Source: Methylovulum sp.
GTDB taxonomy: Bacteria; Pseudomonadota; Gammaproteobacteria; Methylococcales; Methylomonadaceae
NCBI GenBank assembly: GCA_030653435.1
Contig: JAURZI010000047.1
Coordinates: 1-38,526 of the forward strand
DNA length: 38,526 nt
Direction: 5' to 3'
Part shown: positions 13,795 to 32,603 of the stretch, piece after piece
Numbering within the stretch: position 1 is the first letter of the stretch
How the letters are laid out: each line of letters begins with the position of its first letter
The notes under the pieces: model-generated
Seen by the model: only the letters and a program-made list of their open reading frames with translations
Told to the model about the DNA's origin: nothing
The model's database searches: none
Translations under genes and position numbers: made by a program

Positions 13795-13991
13795 GATGAT
13801 ACCGTTATCGCGCAATGATTTCTTCGGGCCGCAAGCCGTCGCCCTGATGGGAGGCCTAACGATAGCCCTTGCTGACGGTGTTTTTCCTGCCCGTGCGCCA
13901 TGCCGCTTGGTTTAAGGTAAAGCGGGGAGTATCGGTACGGTTAACCCAGTAAACTGTGTCCTGGTTTTTTTTGATAACTTCCTGGTGTGAC

Positions 13992-13995
13992 GGAG
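13992..13995 (+). promoter_or_regulatory. Ribosome binding site that fixes the flavoprotein start
   Basis: GGAG lies 6 bases before the ATG at 14002. An in-frame GTG at 13987 starts before this site and is therefore unlikely to be used. Confidence 0.65.
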
Positions 13996-14001
13996 ATAAA
14001 A

Positions 14002-16149
14002 ATGTACGCTACCCGCATCGTATTACTGCTCGTTATTGCAACGTTGATGGCCGTGTTTTTTGCCCTGGGCGGCCCGGACTATTTGACGCTGGCGGCGCTT
14101 AAATCCCAGTACGCCGGGATCATCGCCTTCAGTGAGGCGCACAGGGCGCAAGCCATCGCCTTTTATAGTTTGATATATATTGTGGTCACCGGCTTGTCCT
14201 TACCCGGGGCGACTATGTTAACGCTGGCAGGCGGTGCGGTTTTCGGCCTGTTTTGGGGTACCGTGATTGTGTCTTTTACCTCGACGCTAGGCGCAACACT
14301 AGCCTTTTTAGCAGCGCGTTTTTTATTCAGGGAGGCCATTGCGGAGCGTTTTGGCGACCGGCTTAACGCCATCAACGACGGCATCGAACGCGACGGCGCT
14401 TATTATTTGTTCACGTTAAGACTGGTGCCGTTATTCCCATTTTTTGCCATCAACTCGCTGATGGGTTTGACGACATTAAAAACGTCCACGTTTTATGCCG
14501 TCAGCCAACTGGGTATGCTGGCGGGAACCTTGGTTTACGTCAATGCAGGCACCCAGTTGGCCAGGCTGGACTCGTTGGCGGGCATTTTATCGCCCACGTT
14601 AATCGTGTCCTTTGCTTTATTGGGCGTGTTTCCTCTGCTGGTAAAAAAAATCCTCGATGCTGCCGAGGCCGCCAAGATTTATCGCAACTGGACCAAACCG
14701 CCGCACTTTGATAACAATCTGGTCGTCATCGGCGCCGGTGCGGGCGGACTGGTGACGGCTTATATAGCCGCCACAGTTAAGGCCAAGGTAACCCTGGTGG
14801 AAAAGCATGCTATGGGCGGCGATTGCCTGAATACCGGTTGTGTGCCGTCAAAAGCGCTGATACGCTCCGCAAGGTTGTTGGCACAAATCCGCCGCAGTGC
14901 GGAACTGGGCATTAAAGCCGCCAGCGCCGACTATGCCTTTGCCGACGTGATGGAGCGGGTGCAAACCGTTATCAACACCGTTGCGCCGCATGATTCCATC
15001 GAGCGTTATACCGGACTGGGCATAGAGGTTATTACCGGCACGGCAAACATCATTTCACCGTGGGAGGTTGAAGTTAAAACCGCCACGGGCACGCATACCC
15101 TCACTACCCGCGCCATCGTCATTGCCGCAGGCGCAAAGCCTTGGGTGCCGTCTATTCCGGGTTTGGCCGAGATCGGCTATTTTACGTCGGACACGATCTG
15201 GCAGCTGCGCGAGCAGCCTAAGCGCTTGTTGGTGTTGGGCGGCGGGGCGATAGGCTGCGAGCTGGCCCAGGCTTTTGCGCGTTTGGGTTGTCAGGTGACC
15301 CAAGTGGAAATATTGCCGAGATTGTTGATGCGCGAAGACGAAGACGTGTCCGCCATCGTAGAAACCCGTTTTCAGCAGGAAGGCATACGGGTTTTGCTTG
15401 GGCATGACGCCCAGCAGTTTATGCAGGAAAACGGTGAAAAAATACTGGTCGCCGGGCATCAGGGCCGCGAAGTCCGTATTGCGTTCGACCAGGTTTTGCT
15501 GGCGCTGGGCCGCGCGGCGAATGTTTCCGGCTATGGCGTCGAAGCGCTGGGCATTAAGCTATCGCCGCGCAATACGATAGCCGTCAACGCATTTCAGCAA
15601 ACCAATTACCCGAATATCTATGCTTGCGGCGATGTCGCAGGCCCTTATCTGTTTACGCATGCGGCGGCGCATCAGGCCTGGTATGCGGCGGTAAATGCCT
15701 TGTTCGGCGGTTTCAGATCATTCCGCACCGATTATTCCGCGCTGCCTTATGCAACGTTTATTGACCCCGAACTGGCGCGGGTCGGCCTGAATGAGCGGGA
15801 GGCCAAGGCACAAGGCATCGCTTATGAGGTCAGCACCTACTCTCTTAATGAACTGGATCGGGCGATCACCGACAGCGTGGGGATAGGTTTCGTCAAGGTG
15901 CTGACCCAACCCGGCAAGGATAAAATCCTTGGTGTGACTATCGTCGGCGAGCAAGCCGCAGAGTCGATTGCCGAATTCGTGTTGGCGATGAAGTATAAGC
16001 TGGGGTTGAACAAGCTGCTGCAAACTGTCCATATTTATCCGACCATGGCAGAAGCGAACAAATATGCGGCCGGCGTCCGGAAGCGCCGGCATGCCCCGCA
16101 AACACTGCTAAAATGCCTGCATTATTACCATGCTTGGCGGCGACATTAA
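14002..16149 (+). CDS. TVP38/DedA-type membrane domain fused to a mercuric-reductase-like FAD disulfide oxidoreductase
   Basis: About 715 residues from the ATG at 14002. Residues 1-215 form a polytopic membrane domain of the TVP38/TMEM64 (VTT, SNARE-associated) type, with SLPGATMLTLAGGAVFG and the conserved LRLVPLFPFFAINSLMGLTT. The rest is a class I pyridine-nucleotide-disulfide oxidoreductase: FAD motif VVIGAGAGGLVTAY, redox disulfide GGDCLNTGCVPSKA (C275/C280), NAD(P) motif LLVLGGGAIGCELA, FAD site IYACGDVAG and the C-terminal HIYPTMAE His-Glu pair. It lacks the N-terminal HMA domain and the C-terminal Cys pair of true MerA, so Hg(II) reduction is not supported. Membrane-tethered, substrate unknown. 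It is followed 62 bases later by arsS; similar pairings recur in proteobacteria, to my recollection. Confidence 0.9.
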   Translation: MYATRIVLLLVIATLMAVFFALGGPDYLTLAALKSQYAGIIAFSEAHRAQAIAFYSLIYIVVTGLSLPGATMLTLAGGAVFGLFWGTVIVSFTSTLGATLAFLAARFLFREAIAERFGDRLNAINDGIERDGAYYLFTLRLVPLFPFFAINSLMGLTTLKTSTFYAVSQLGMLAGTLVYVNAGTQLARLDSLAGILSPTLIVSFALLGVFPLLVKKILDAAEAAKIYRNWTKPPHFDNNLVVIGAGAGGLVTAYIAATVKAKVTLVEKHAMGGDCLNTGCVPSKALIRSARLLAQIRRSAELGIKAASADYAFADVMERVQTVINTVAPHDSIERYTGLGIEVITGTANIISPWEVEVKTATGTHTLTTRAIVIAAGAKPWVPSIPGLAEIGYFTSDTIWQLREQPKRLLVLGGGAIGCELAQAFARLGCQVTQVEILPRLLMREDEDVSAIVETRFQQEGIRVLLGHDAQQFMQENGEKILVAGHQGREVRIAFDQVLLALGRAANVSGYGVEALGIKLSPRNTIAVNAFQQTNYPNIYACGDVAGPYLFTHAAAHQAWYAAVNALFGGFRSFRTDYSALPYATFIDPELARVGLNEREAKAQGIAYEVSTYSLNELDRAITDSVGIGFVKVLTQPGKDKILGVTIVGEQAAESIAEFVLAMKYKLGLNKLLQTVHIYPTMAEANKYAAGVRKRRHAPQTLLKCLHYYHAWRRH

Positions 16150-16211
16150 TGGTTTTTCTCCGGCAATCGCCACGGCCTACGAAGACAGACCAAAACTATC
16201 GGGATGACTAT

Positions 16212-17168
16212 ATGCTTGATTCGCTACCCTATTTGCAAGACTCCGACTTTCCGGTCATTACTCGCCATCAACTGGAGATCCTGCAAGTCAATCTGGGCTA
16301 TTTATGCAACTTGAGTTGTACCCATTGTCACGTCAATGCCGGCCCCAAACGTACCGAGGTCATGGCTAAAACGACGGTCGACCAAGTGTTGGCCTTCATT
16401 GACCATAACGGCGGCGGGTTGCATACGCTGGATTTGACGGGTGGCGCACCGGAAATGAACCCTCATTTCCGCTATCTGGTGACCGGGGCCAAAGCCAGAG
16501 GGCTTAAGGTCATAGACCGTTGTAATCTGGCGATATTGCTGGAGGACGGCTTCCAGGATATGGGCGAATTTCTGGCGCATCATCAGGTAGAGATCGTGGC
16601 GTCGTTACCGTGTTATCTTCAGGATAATGTCGATAGGCAGCGCGGCAAGGGCACGTTCGACGCCAGCATCCGCGCGTTGCAGGGTTTGAATGCGCTAGGT
16701 TATGGCATGCCCGGCAGCGGTTTGTCGTTAAACCTGGTTTTTAACCCGCAAGGCGCGAGCCTGCCGCCCGAACAACAGGCGCTGGAGCAGGCCTATAAGC
16801 AGCATTTGCATGCGGGTTACGGCATTGTCTTCAACCACTTGTACGCGTTAACGAACTCACCTGTGCAACGTTTCGGCAGCGTATTGTTAAGCTCCGGGCA
16901 ATTTGATACTTATATGGCGTTGCTGAAAACGCACTACAATGCCGCAACGCTAGCTAAGCTGATGTGCCGCAACACCTTGAGCGTGGACTGGCAGGGTTTT
17001 GTTTATGATTGCGATTTTAACCAAATGCTGGGCTTGCCTTTAGGCGGCGGGCAACAAACCCATATCACCCAGGTTCCCGCATTGGCCGGTAAACCTATCC
17101 ATACCTTGCAACATTGTTACGCTTGTACGGCGGGACAGGGCAGCAGTTGCAGCGGTGTTACCCAATGA
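16212..17168 (+). CDS. arsS: Arsenosugar biosynthesis radical SAM protein ArsS
   Basis: About 318 residues from the ATG at 16212 (GGGAT about 7 bases upstream); an upstream extension of the frame is not family-like. The radical SAM cluster motif is CNLSCTHC (C32, C36, C39) after LEILQVNLGYL, followed by HVNAGPKRTE and LDLTGGAPEMNP. The C-terminal DUF3641 region has LMCRNTLSVDWQGFVYDCDF and ends in HCYACTAGQGSSCSG, both typical of ArsS. The enzyme joins the adenosyl group to dimethylarsinate on the way to arsenosugars and needs methylated arsenic, normally made by ArsM, which is not in this window. Its stop overlaps the next gene (ATGA). Confidence 0.93.
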   Translation: MLDSLPYLQDSDFPVITRHQLEILQVNLGYLCNLSCTHCHVNAGPKRTEVMAKTTVDQVLAFIDHNGGGLHTLDLTGGAPEMNPHFRYLVTGAKARGLKVIDRCNLAILLEDGFQDMGEFLAHHQVEIVASLPCYLQDNVDRQRGKGTFDASIRALQGLNALGYGMPGSGLSLNLVFNPQGASLPPEQQALEQAYKQHLHAGYGIVFNHLYALTNSPVQRFGSVLLSSGQFDTYMALLKTHYNAATLAKLMCRNTLSVDWQGFVYDCDFNQMLGLPLGGGQQTHITQVPALAGKPIHTLQHCYACTAGQGSSCSGVTQ

Positions 17169-29991: not shown

Positions 29992-30028
29992 GTCATTAAA
30001 ATGACATATTCATTTTTTAATATATACC
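29992..30028 (+). promoter_or_regulatory. Candidate arsR promoter with overlapping operator
   Basis: GTCATT-AA-AATGAC (29992-30005) is a perfect inverted repeat that overlaps a possible -35 box ATGACA (30001-30006). A -10-like TATACC follows at 30023-30028, 16 bases on. The start codon of arsR is at 30049. An operator over the -35 box fits autorepression by an ArsR-type protein, but no binding consensus was checked. Confidence 0.45.
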
Positions 30029-30048: not shown

Positions 30049-30429
30049 ATGGAATTAATTAATCTCTATAAGTGCCTTTGTGATGTGCAACGTTTACGGA
30101 TACTTAACCTGCTTAAGGAAGGCCCGTTATGCGTGTGCCATTTGCAAGAAATTCTTGGGGAAACACAGGTCAAGATTTCCAAGCAACTGCAATATATGAA
30201 AAAACTGGGCATTGTTTTGGCCCGGCGGCAAGGAGTATGGATGGTCTATAGCTTGCCGATGCCGCCCCATCCCTTGCTTTTGGCAAACTTGCAAGGCTTG
30301 CAGACCTGCACCGATGAGTTTCCGTGGTTCGCCGAGGATTTGAAAAACCGTGCCCTTATCCTTCAACGCTTCGCCGATAACCTGGCGGAATGCCCGCAAG
30401 TGGTCTACCAATCCGCTAGTGGCTGCTAG
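30049..30429 (+). CDS. arsR: ArsR/SmtB-family repressor with CVC metalloid motif
   Basis: 126 residues from the ATG at 30049; an ATG at 30001 lies inside the putative promoter, so it was rejected. The winged helix spans about 5-80: LCDVQRLRILNLLKEGPLCV, CHLQEILGETQVKISKQLQY and the wing RRQGVWMVYSLP. C28 and C30 form the CVC pair of the ELCVCDL motif (here PLCVCHL), which in E. coli-type ArsR binds As(III)/Sb(III) and releases DNA. Further cysteines (C9, C11) lie in helix 1. It heads a same-strand run with the exported ArsC-like protein (51-base gap) and the DsbD-like gene. Confidence 0.92.
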   Translation: MELINLYKCLCDVQRLRILNLLKEGPLCVCHLQEILGETQVKISKQLQYMKKLGIVLARRQGVWMVYSLPMPPHPLLLANLQGLQTCTDEFPWFAEDLKNRALILQRFADNLAECPQVVYQSASGC

Positions 30430-30480
30430 GTTTGTCGGTGTTAATCACCGCCGCCATTAAACCAACCAGAAGAGGATAAT

Positions 30481-31188
30481 ATGATTTTCAAAAGCTACCG
30501 TTTCGTACAGTTTGTTTTCGCCGTTTTATTGCTGGGCCTGGCTAGCCCGGCAAGCGCCAGCCAAGACGATGTCTTGCCGGCTATTCGGCCTTATATCGCC
30601 AAAATAACCCAAGAATTCGAACAGATTCCTGTCGAGCGGCAGCTGCAATTGAAAAAAACAGCACTGTTTGTCCGTTCAAAAATCCAAGCCGGTGAAATAG
30701 CGCAACTGACTTTCATCTGCACCCACAATTCACGCCGCAGCCATCTGGCACAAATCTGGACGCAAACCGCCGCCGCTTTTTACGGTGTCGGTGGCGTACA
30801 GACGTTTTCAGGCGGCACGGAAGCCACGGCGATGAATATCCGCACAGTTGATGCGTTACGCCGAGTGGGTTTTATCTTGACCGACTCCACCGGTGGAGAA
30901 AATCCGGTATATCTGGTCAAGTATTCCACGACTAAACCGGAGTTACGTGCTTTTTCCAAACTTTATAATGCCGATGGCAACCCGCAAGACAATTATGCGG
31001 CGCTGATGACCTGCTCCCAGGCGGATAAAAACTGCCCGGTTGTGCAAGGCAGCACGTTACGGATTCCCATTCATTACGAAGACCCCAAACTTGCAGATAA
31101 CCTGCCGGAGGAAATAGCCCGCTACGATGAACGCACACGACAGATAGGCCGCGAAATGTTTTATATGATGGCCCAGGTCAACAGCTGA
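30481..31188 (+). CDS. Exported arsenate-reductase/LMW-phosphatase-like protein with all three ArsC cysteines
   Basis: 235 residues. Residues 1-26 are a signal peptide (KSYRF, core VQFVFAVLLLGL, ASPASA cleavage). The mature part has the phosphatase loop CTHNSRRS (C80 to R86, CX5R, aligned with CTGNSCRS of ArsC) followed by HLAQIW. CSQADKNCP (C178, C185) has the spacing and context of the Cys82/Cys89 relay of S. aureus pI258-type ArsC. These are the only three cysteines in the protein. By family knowledge this predicts thiol-coupled arsenate reduction; export to the periplasm is unusual, since known ArsC is cytoplasmic. GAGGA lies 5 bases before the ATG. The next gene could supply electrons. 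A phosphatase role is the alternative. Confidence 0.85.
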   Translation: MIFKSYRFVQFVFAVLLLGLASPASASQDDVLPAIRPYIAKITQEFEQIPVERQLQLKKTALFVRSKIQAGEIAQLTFICTHNSRRSHLAQIWTQTAAAFYGVGGVQTFSGGTEATAMNIRTVDALRRVGFILTDSTGGENPVYLVKYSTTKPELRAFSKLYNADGNPQDNYAALMTCSQADKNCPVVQGSTLRIPIHYEDPKLADNLPEEIARYDERTRQIGREMFYMMAQVNS

Positions 31189-31244
31189 ATCCTATAGTCC
31201 ACCGGCGCGGCTTGGGCCGCGCCGTCACTGCGAGAATTGTGTTT

Positions 31245-32603
31245 ATGAAACCGATTTATTTGATCACCGCCTTGTCGTTGATGTTGGTAACGGGTATTGC
31301 CTATGCGGATAGCCCATTGAGCGCCATGAATGCTTGGGTTGACGGCCAACTTGCATCGAACCAGTCTTCCTTGGCGGCTTATGCTTTCCTGATGCTGGGC
31401 GGCTTGCTGGCCAGTTTGTTGCCTTGTGTTTATCCGCTTTATCCTATCACCGCCAGCATTATTGCCGGACGCTCGCAAGGCGATGTGCCGCGCGCATTGC
31501 ACCCCGCGCTTTATTACGTCGGGCTTGCCAGCATTTATTTTCTTTTTGGCCTGATTGCCGCCGCTACGGGCGGCGCGTTTAATGAACTGCTGCGCTTGCC
31601 GGTCACCAATCTTTTGCTGGCCCTGTTATTTTTGGTGCTGGCGTTGGCTACGGCGGGTTTTCTGCATGTCCCCTTATTCAGCGGCAATGGCCTTGGCGAT
31701 AAAACGCCAGGGCTTGCCGGAACGTTTCTTATGGGTATGGGCGCGGGACTGTTGTCGTCATCGTGTGTCGGCCCGTTTGTCGTGGGCATTCTCGTTGGGA
31801 TTGCCAGCCAAACCGATGGCTTGACCTTATATGCCACGCTGATTGCCGCCTTGAAAATGCTGGCGTTCGGCTTGGGGTTGGGAATCCCTTTCCTGCTTAT
31901 TGGCTTATTCGGTGTCAGACTGCCCAAATCCGGCTCTTGGATGAAATATGTGCAATGGGCATTAGGGGCGCTGATCCTGTATTTTACCTACGCTTATCTG
32001 GAAAAAGGCTTGTCCGGCTACGGCTTTAAGCCTGAGCATATCCAATTGGTGTTTTTCGGCGCATTGCTGTTGTTGTTTTCGCTATATCACGTATGGGAAG
32101 GCGAAAACATGCACGGTTTTCGGCGTATGGAAAAGTCATTGTTCACGCTGTTTGCGTTGGTAGGCGGTTTGGTATTGGCGCAAGGCGTGTTCACCTCATC
32201 CGCTACGGCAACGATTGCGGCACCAACAAGCACGGCGGCCATTGCGACGGAAACCAAAGGCGAGCTGACCTGGTATTTGAACCGTGAAGATGCCGTCAAG
32301 GCCGCCCGTGAACAAGGCAAGCCGATTTTCGTGGATTTTTTTGCTTACTGGTGCGCCAACTGTAAAGAGTTCGAGCACTTGACTGAAACAAACCGCGAAC
32401 TGATTGATGGACTTAAAAAAGTTGTGCTCCTTAAGGTTTACGATAACGACCCTGAATTCAAGGTGTTCCAAAACGACCCGCGTTACCCTGAGTTGAAAGT
32501 GGGTCTGCCGTTTTTTGTCATTGCAGATGCCGATGACCATTTGATTTACAAAACCAGTGATTACACGCGCACTGATGAGATGCTGCTTTTTATGGCTGAA
32601 TAA
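31245..32603 (+). CDS. DsbD/CcdA-like thiol-disulfide transporter with C-terminal thioredoxin domain
   Basis: 453 residues from the ATG at 31245. A short leader (MKPIYLITALSLMLVTGIAY) is followed by about 8 membrane helices. The two membrane redox cysteines are C61 in LLPCVYPLYPI and C174 in SSSCVGPF, matching the DsbD beta domain. The C-terminal domain is thioredoxin-like with YWCANCKEFE (C370, C373). The N-terminal immunoglobulin-like alpha domain of classical DsbD is absent, so electrons would pass from the thioredoxin-like domain straight to a client. It follows the exported ArsC-like gene by 56 bases, which makes that protein a natural client. A general cytochrome c or disulfide role is possible. 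Confidence 0.92.
   Translation: MKPIYLITALSLMLVTGIAYADSPLSAMNAWVDGQLASNQSSLAAYAFLMLGGLLASLLPCVYPLYPITASIIAGRSQGDVPRALHPALYYVGLASIYFLFGLIAAATGGAFNELLRLPVTNLLLALLFLVLALATAGFLHVPLFSGNGLGDKTPGLAGTFLMGMGAGLLSSSCVGPFVVGILVGIASQTDGLTLYATLIAALKMLAFGLGLGIPFLLIGLFGVRLPKSGSWMKYVQWALGALILYFTYAYLEKGLSGYGFKPEHIQLVFFGALLLLFSLYHVWEGENMHGFRRMEKSLFTLFALVGGLVLAQGVFTSSATATIAAPTSTAAIATETKGELTWYLNREDAVKAAREQGKPIFVDFFAYWCANCKEFEHLTETNRELIDGLKKVVLLKVYDNDPEFKVFQNDPRYPELKVGLPFFVIADADDHLIYKTSDYTRTDEMLLFMAE

Follow-up and report, generated by a model that had tools for sequence, protein, structure and literature searches.

We analysed a stretch of 38,526 nucleotides from Methylovulum sp. (contig JAURZI010000047.1, positions 1 to 38,526; hereafter the window), which belongs to a genome of 4.66 Mb that is 99.95% complete, and within it a set of three genes at 30049–32603 (+). 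These genes, arsR, an ArsC-like gene and a DsbD-like gene, lie on the same strand with intergenic gaps of 51 and 56 nucleotides (Table 1). An initial annotation had read their order as a repressor of the ArsR type with a CVC site, an exported ArsC-like protein with three cysteines and a DsbD-like transporter that lacks the alpha domain and keeps a CANC thioredoxin domain, and had proposed that together they form a periplasmic thiol relay. The coordinates, domain models and cysteine positions confirm that order, and comparison with other genomes supports the relay.

Table 1. Features of the three-gene set, in window coordinates
Feature	Position	Strand	Basis
arsR, metalloid-type ArsR/SmtB repressor with a CVC (LCVCH) site	30049..30429	+	HTH_metalloreg, HTH_5, LCVCH motif
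Exported ArsC-like protein, 235 amino acids, CTHNSRRS loop, C80/C178/C185	30481..31188	+	Cysteine triad, predicted structure (export predicted)
Predicted signal peptide of the ArsC-like protein, residues 1–26, A24-S25-A26 site	30481..30558	+	Rule-based only
Short DsbD-type transporter, 452 amino acids, DsbD_TM, C-terminal CANC thioredoxin domain, without the alpha domain	31245..32603	+	Domain models
Candidate ArsR operator/promoter stretch CATATTCATTTTTTAATATAT	30005..30025	+	Alignment of eight upstream regions

The product of the first gene scores above the cut-offs of both helix-turn-helix models that it matches (HTH_metalloreg, 71.6 bits against 55; HTH_5, 40.6 bits against 22). The CVC of classical ArsR binds As(III), and the LCVCH motif that holds it is present in all eight ArsR sequences, the window's included. 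This motif lay outside the pattern used to search for ArsR; KCLCD and the VEL/MEL start belonged to that pattern and are thus no evidence of conservation. We place the start of arsR at 30049 and not at the in-frame ATG at 30001 because GTG is the first in-frame start codon at this place in five orthologues (L011, L056, L057, L217, L220).

The cysteines of the ArsC-like protein, only three in number, are invariant across its family. Specifically, the CX5R loop (C80-THNSR-R86) and the pair C178 and C185, seven residues apart, are found in 134 of 134 aligned rows, as are the full CTHNSRRS motif, D201 and K203, with P202 in 132; C178 and C185 align to the cysteine pair of 1lju and 2cd7. Left out of these rows were the fragments L060, L061 and L184, 13 Bacteroidota genomes with matches only at an expectation value (E) above 1e-5, a broken match in G538 and the weak additional pieces of G532 and G724; L216–L218 were found later and stand outside them. 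The score of the window protein against arsC_pI258_fam is 33.4 bits, under the cut-off of 174.3, and all 41 family members that were scanned match TIGR02691 at E ≤ 1e-3. A structure predicted from an alignment of 41 of the 134 rows, with signal peptides removed, has a mean predicted local distance difference test score (pLDDT) of 95 and a predicted template modelling score (pTM) of 0.93. Its first 16 matches in the PDB are arsenate reductases, with D. indicus ArsC2 on top and the thioredoxin–ArsC complex 2ipa among them, and phosphatases come after; template modelling (TM) scores are 0.73–0.84 by target length and 0.45–0.55 by the longer model, at 17–22% identity, and the model places two helices ahead of the core. 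Judged by the best match of this model, the protein folds as a thioredoxin-coupled arsenate reductase.

The ArsC-like protein begins with a hydrophobic segment that ends in an A-S-A site, which suggests export. We picked an exported class of 12 of the 134 rows by eye from a hydrophobicity list, leaving out L090 and L110 near its lower end, and applied a strict signal-peptide rule (a basic start, an uncharged core, and AxA or a lipobox): 8 of these 12 rows satisfy it and none of the other 122 does. The rule holds for 7/7 members of the window protein's clade, the Bacteroidota member by a lipobox, and for 3/3 copies found later. Selection on the signal segment is more relaxed than on the gene as a whole, with a ratio of non-synonymous to synonymous substitution rates (dN/dS) of 0.41 vs 0.12. 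In addition, once the signal segment is set aside, the triad supplies the only cysteines of the nine exported copies from the window's family, which would suit an oxidising compartment.

The third protein matches DsbD_TM with 93 bits and Thioredoxin_7 with 42.4 bits. Its match to the DsbD model (NF001419; 175.5 bits, under the cut-off of 330) starts only at model position 164, and the alpha domain is therefore absent. Four cysteines, C61 and C174 in the membrane part and C370 and C373 in the C-terminal CxxC thioredoxin domain, are kept in 9/9 copies. Its signal peptide was judged by eye, and the structure predicted from nine sequences is poor (mean pLDDT 58, pTM 0.47) and served for no fold search. 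Within the window's order (201 genomes), five genomes have copies at least 76% identical, of which the G370 copy is broken; identity then drops to 39% for the next best match, and open frames of 600–770 amino acids account for most of the weaker matches. This step in identity, together with the longer frames, marks the short DsbD as a separate, additional protein. Elsewhere the window genome itself encodes a full-length DsbD (a frame of 642 amino acids, 38% identical to the short form). No match to the short form was found at E ≤ 1e-40 in 72,556 plasmid records.

The searches comprised 1,936 genome draws, many genomes being drawn twice. Among 201 genomes from the window's family, nine have the short DsbD, one copy being broken; it was also found in at least one of 395 Bacteroidota genomes at E ≤ 1e-60, with at most four candidates per genome scored; 199 genomes of that Bacteroidota genome's order gave no further copy at E ≤ 1e-80. 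The initial annotation had looked to a conserved neighbourhood of arsR, exported arsC and dsbD, and the linkage is indeed conserved: all nine intact short DsbD genes that we found, the window's included (eight in its family, one in Bacteroidota), adjoin an exported ArsC-like gene, downstream of it and on the same strand. The gap between the two is mostly 6–64 nucleotides, and is 265 and 354 nucleotides in G330 and G421 when measured from the longest frame. Other lineages may hold the pair as well.

We compared the flanks of the nine pairs and of the G408 locus, ten loci in all, taking up to three genes per side of at least 110 amino acids at E ≤ 1e-5. Flank genes were common to just two pairs of loci, namely a second ArsC-type gene in G378 and G950 and a single neighbour in G962 and G972. 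On this comparison, the ArsC-like and dsbD genes stayed paired while their surroundings changed. The G378 operon runs arsR, exported ArsC, short dsbD, second ArsC and acr3, and that of G950 runs arsR, arsI, second ArsC, exported ArsC and short dsbD. The Acr3 and ArsI of these operons exceed their cut-offs (461.1 vs 282.8 and 129.8 vs 116). The suggestion that the set is a self-contained module thus holds in part: in these two genomes the pair sits inside a larger ars operon, and in G421 it has no arsR beside it.

The second ArsC proteins beside the pair reach 72–84 bits in arsenate reductase models, under the cut-off of 174.3. The window genome has a separate arsR-arsC-acr3 group on contig C32, whose Acr3 scores 461.1 bits (over the cut-off), whose ArsC scores 69.8 bits in the LMWPc family (over the cut-off) and 67.5 against the model for arsenate reductases, and whose ArsR scores 54.7 vs 55 in NCBIfam and lies over the Pfam cut-offs. 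None of these ArsC proteins has a signal peptide by eye, and therefore exported and cytoplasmic types coexist. Three further matches to the ArsC family PF03960, all over cut-off, are on its contigs C134, C37 and C49. In G370, ArsC-like fragments (L060, L061) accompany a DsbD-like gene in pieces, so that both genes are broken, and another contig (L220) carries the orthologous arsR with two further ArsC-type genes. Three genes follow one another at the Bacteroidota locus (G546, L062 3958–6685): that of an ArsC-like lipoprotein, that of the short DsbD and another ArsC-like gene, which is signal-less.

The ArsC-like family is common in Bacteroidota and, as far as sequence tells, mostly without a signal peptide. 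Matches at E ≤ 1e-3 occur in 133 of 395 Bacteroidota genomes, 13 of them with E above 1e-5 only. The protein is found in 8/201 genomes of the window's order, one copy being broken, and a sample of the window's phylum gave matches in 7/299 genomes, strong only in the window's own and at E 1.6e-4 to 9.0e-4 in the other six. Four plasmid records matched it, all under 60% identity. Labelling neighbours by their scores against reference proteins that were themselves verified with Pfam and NCBIfam, we found ArsR, Acr3, ArsM, ArsA or ArsD within 3.5 kb of 112 of the 134 members (10/12 exported, 102/122 others). When ArsR is dropped, because it is not arsenic-specific, 85 remain (5/12 and 80/122). ArsR and Acr3 stand together beside 67 of the 122 non-exported members, and six of the 122 show the arrangement ArsR-ArsM-DUF6428-Acr3. 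With such neighbours, this is largely an arsenic-operon family, of which the window protein is an exported branch.

The tree built from the 134 rows groups the six exported proteins from the window's family (100/100) and joins them to the Bacteroidota lipoprotein of G546 in a single starred clade (96/85). Four changes of the export label are required on it, two of them forced by starred branches. A DsbD gene stands beside 6/12 exported members vs 1/122 others (Fisher, 8.6e-7), and that one case is in G546, whose second ArsC-like gene adjoins the same DsbD. The association has been retained across about 50% protein identity. L058 (G450) and L059 (G445), from the window's family, are signal-less members that fall elsewhere on the tree than the exported ones. 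Where synonymous change is unsaturated, dN/dS is 0.07–0.15 (two or three orthologues per gene), which points to purifying selection on all three genes of the set. Because the gene order recurs in other genomes and dN/dS is low, we take the order to be more than chance.

A periplasmic, arsenic-responsive thiol relay is probably the best explanation of the set, and the comparative evidence for it lies in the linkage (9/9), the ArsC triad (134/134) and the transporter cysteines (9/9). From these features, and by analogy with characterized proteins, we infer how the set may be induced, what its substrate may be, how electrons would travel and what the cell might gain. ArsR would repress the set until As(III) or Sb(III) binds its CVC site, and the ArsC-like protein would be exported through its signal peptide. 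In the periplasm, C80 would attack arsenate in the CX5R loop, arsenite would leave, and the oxidation would move on to C178 and C185, ending as a disulphide. We propose this chemistry because the triad is invariant and the mechanism of the pI258 and B. subtilis ArsC is known: a nucleophilic cysteine acts, and a disulphide of the second and third cysteines follows. The short DsbD, if it works as DsbD does, would move electrons from cytoplasmic thioredoxin to C61/C174 in the membrane and on to periplasmic C370/C373. Its CANC thioredoxin domain would then probably reduce the C178-C185 disulphide directly, because the alpha domain, the onward route for electrons in full-length DsbD, is absent. That the whole amounts to dedicated, thiol-driven arsenate reduction in the periplasm, with the exported ArsC acting before arsenate enters through phosphate transporters, we put forward more tentatively, with slightly less than even confidence.

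The relay could be real and yet serve a different substrate under an arsenic-type regulator: an oxyanion other than arsenate, or an organoarsenical that gets into the periplasm. This is unlikely, with the following points in its favour: the window protein falls far under the arsenate reductase equivalog (33.4 vs 174.3 bits), its loop reads CTHNSRRS vs the CTGNSCRS of classical ArsC, ArsI, which acts on organoarsenicals, is encoded beside the pair in G950, and the window carries arsS upstream of the arsR set, at a distance of about 13 kb. Arsenate is nevertheless favoured by the signal-less relatives that stand beside arsR and acr3 in 67/122 rows, and by the invariance of the triad and of the acid-loop residues D201 and K203. 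A further reading, rather improbable in our judgement, gives the short DsbD a general task, the reductive repair of periplasmic thiols that As(III) has damaged; the ArsC-like protein would then be no more than a neighbour, or one of many clients, such as a buffer that binds arsenite. DsbD-type proteins do reduce several partners, and G408 keeps the ArsC-like gene without an adjoining transporter; however, all nine intact transporters found are paired, both genes are broken in G370, the alpha domain, which serves many clients, has been lost, and the window genome has a full-length DsbD as well.

Two other readings concern the ArsC-like protein alone. Its sole Pfam match is LMWPc (PF01451, 13 bits, under the cut-off of 23.2), and family members in two plasmid records are annotated as protein-tyrosine-phosphatase, as would suit a periplasmic phosphatase of proteins or small molecules with the low-molecular-weight protein tyrosine phosphatase fold. 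We know of no role in phosphatases for a cysteine pair equivalent to C178/C185, yet this pair is invariant in 134/134 rows; with phosphatases coming only after the 16 arsenate reductases in the structural comparison, and with the ars gene context, the phosphatase reading is very improbable. It is harder still to credit that the protein stays in the cytoplasm and owes its N-terminal segment to a misplaced start site. A rule was the only means of judging signal peptides, but the hydrophobic core with AxA or a lipobox recurs in 7/7 clade members and 3/3 later copies and in 0/122 non-exported members, the Bacteroidota member has a lipobox, and the N-terminal reading frame is kept while selection on it is relaxed.

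Several points weigh against the proposed relay itself. Its support is only comparative, and both arsenate reductase models, TIGR02691 and NF010053, are missed (33.4 vs 174.3 and 34.9 vs 215 bits). The linkage counts are not independent events because they come largely from one clade, and the excess of DsbD beside exported members appears to be largely one old association, not many separate ones. G408 carries arsR and an exported ArsC-like gene with no DsbD adjoining; a search at E ≤ 1e-30 gave DsbD-like matches in 41 genomes, G408 not among them, although its inclusion in that sample was not shown. Five other exported-class copies in Bacteroidota, one of which satisfies the strict signal rule, also have no short DsbD adjoining, and the G421 pair has no adjoining arsR. 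Finally, forming arsenite in the periplasm has no obvious benefit. Cells without aquaglyceroporins (MIP channels) might keep arsenite more safely outside, but no such pattern emerged: among 39 genomes searched, MIP exceeded the cut-off in 3/8 genomes with an intact pair (G330, G962, G499) vs 15/29 others, and in neither G370 nor G408, which were counted apart.

The textbook route of arsenate detoxification is a cytoplasmic ArsC. The window protein shares with the thioredoxin-coupled enzymes (S. aureus pI258 and B. subtilis ArsC, D. indicus ArsC2) the fold, the CX5R loop, the cysteine pair seven residues apart and the D-P loop; in contrast to these cytoplasmic proteins, it is predicted by rule to be exported, has an N-terminal helical extension, carries an Arg in place of the second loop cysteine (CTHNSRRS) and falls under the family cut-offs. 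The transporter resembles E. coli-type DsbD in its DsbD_TM with a cysteine pair and its C-terminal CxxC thioredoxin domain, but it has no alpha domain and only 452 amino acids. By cut-off, neither protein belongs to the curated ArsC or DsbD families. The proposed relay would resemble ArrAB, a molybdenum respiratory enzyme, in reducing arsenate outside the cytoplasm, by an unrelated thiol chemistry. If so, this would be, to our knowledge, the first periplasmic arsenate reduction without a molybdenum enzyme or a respiratory chain.

In one paper, 'periplasmic arsenate reductase' means ArrAB (PMC11279179), and in another the term occurs where arsenite oxidation is described (PMC1974809). The closest published case is a 2010 survey that found membrane electron carriers in ars operons, with CcdA and thioredoxin linked to arsC, and there the authors considered transmembrane electron flow less likely, since CcdA has no thioredoxin domain and ArsC is cytoplasmic (PMC2963123). 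The window set is like these operons in linking a DsbD-superfamily transporter and thioredoxin-type proteins to arsC, and unlike them in the predicted signal peptide of its ArsC and the fused thioredoxin domain of its transporter (PMC2963123). In the portions of the open-access literature that our searches returned, we saw no exported ArsC described together with a DsbD-type partner, and the accessible parts of PMC6620896 and PMC9144182 contain nothing on such a pairing. A conserved exported ArsC with its own transmembrane reductase makes the question of transmembrane electron flow directly testable. If the relay operates as proposed, the clients of DsbD-type proteins would extend to an oxyanion reductase, and environmental counts of arsC may conceal a class working outside the cytoplasm.

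The candidate operator upstream of arsR was compared across eight loci; its pattern occurs exactly in four, with one mismatch in two and only with three mismatches in two. Within the window it has one match at no more than one mismatch, vs 0.02 expected, which is no independent test because the pattern was drawn from the same alignment. Counts of promoters and terminators were no higher than in shuffles. Neither flank of the set points to arsenic: next to it lie, upstream, a gene for a membrane protein of the transglutaminase type (TgpA_N, Transglut_core) and, downstream, one for a permease resembling MacB (192.4 bits, under the cut-off of 966). The more distant arsS gene, at 16113–17168 (+), encodes a radical SAM protein of arsenosugar biosynthesis (442.6 bits vs a cut-off of 300). 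It is preceded by a gene for a 720-amino-acid protein at 13987–16149 (+), residues 244–695 of which form a flavin adenine dinucleotide (FAD) disulphide oxidoreductase of the MerA/lipoamide dehydrogenase type, under the cut-offs of those families.

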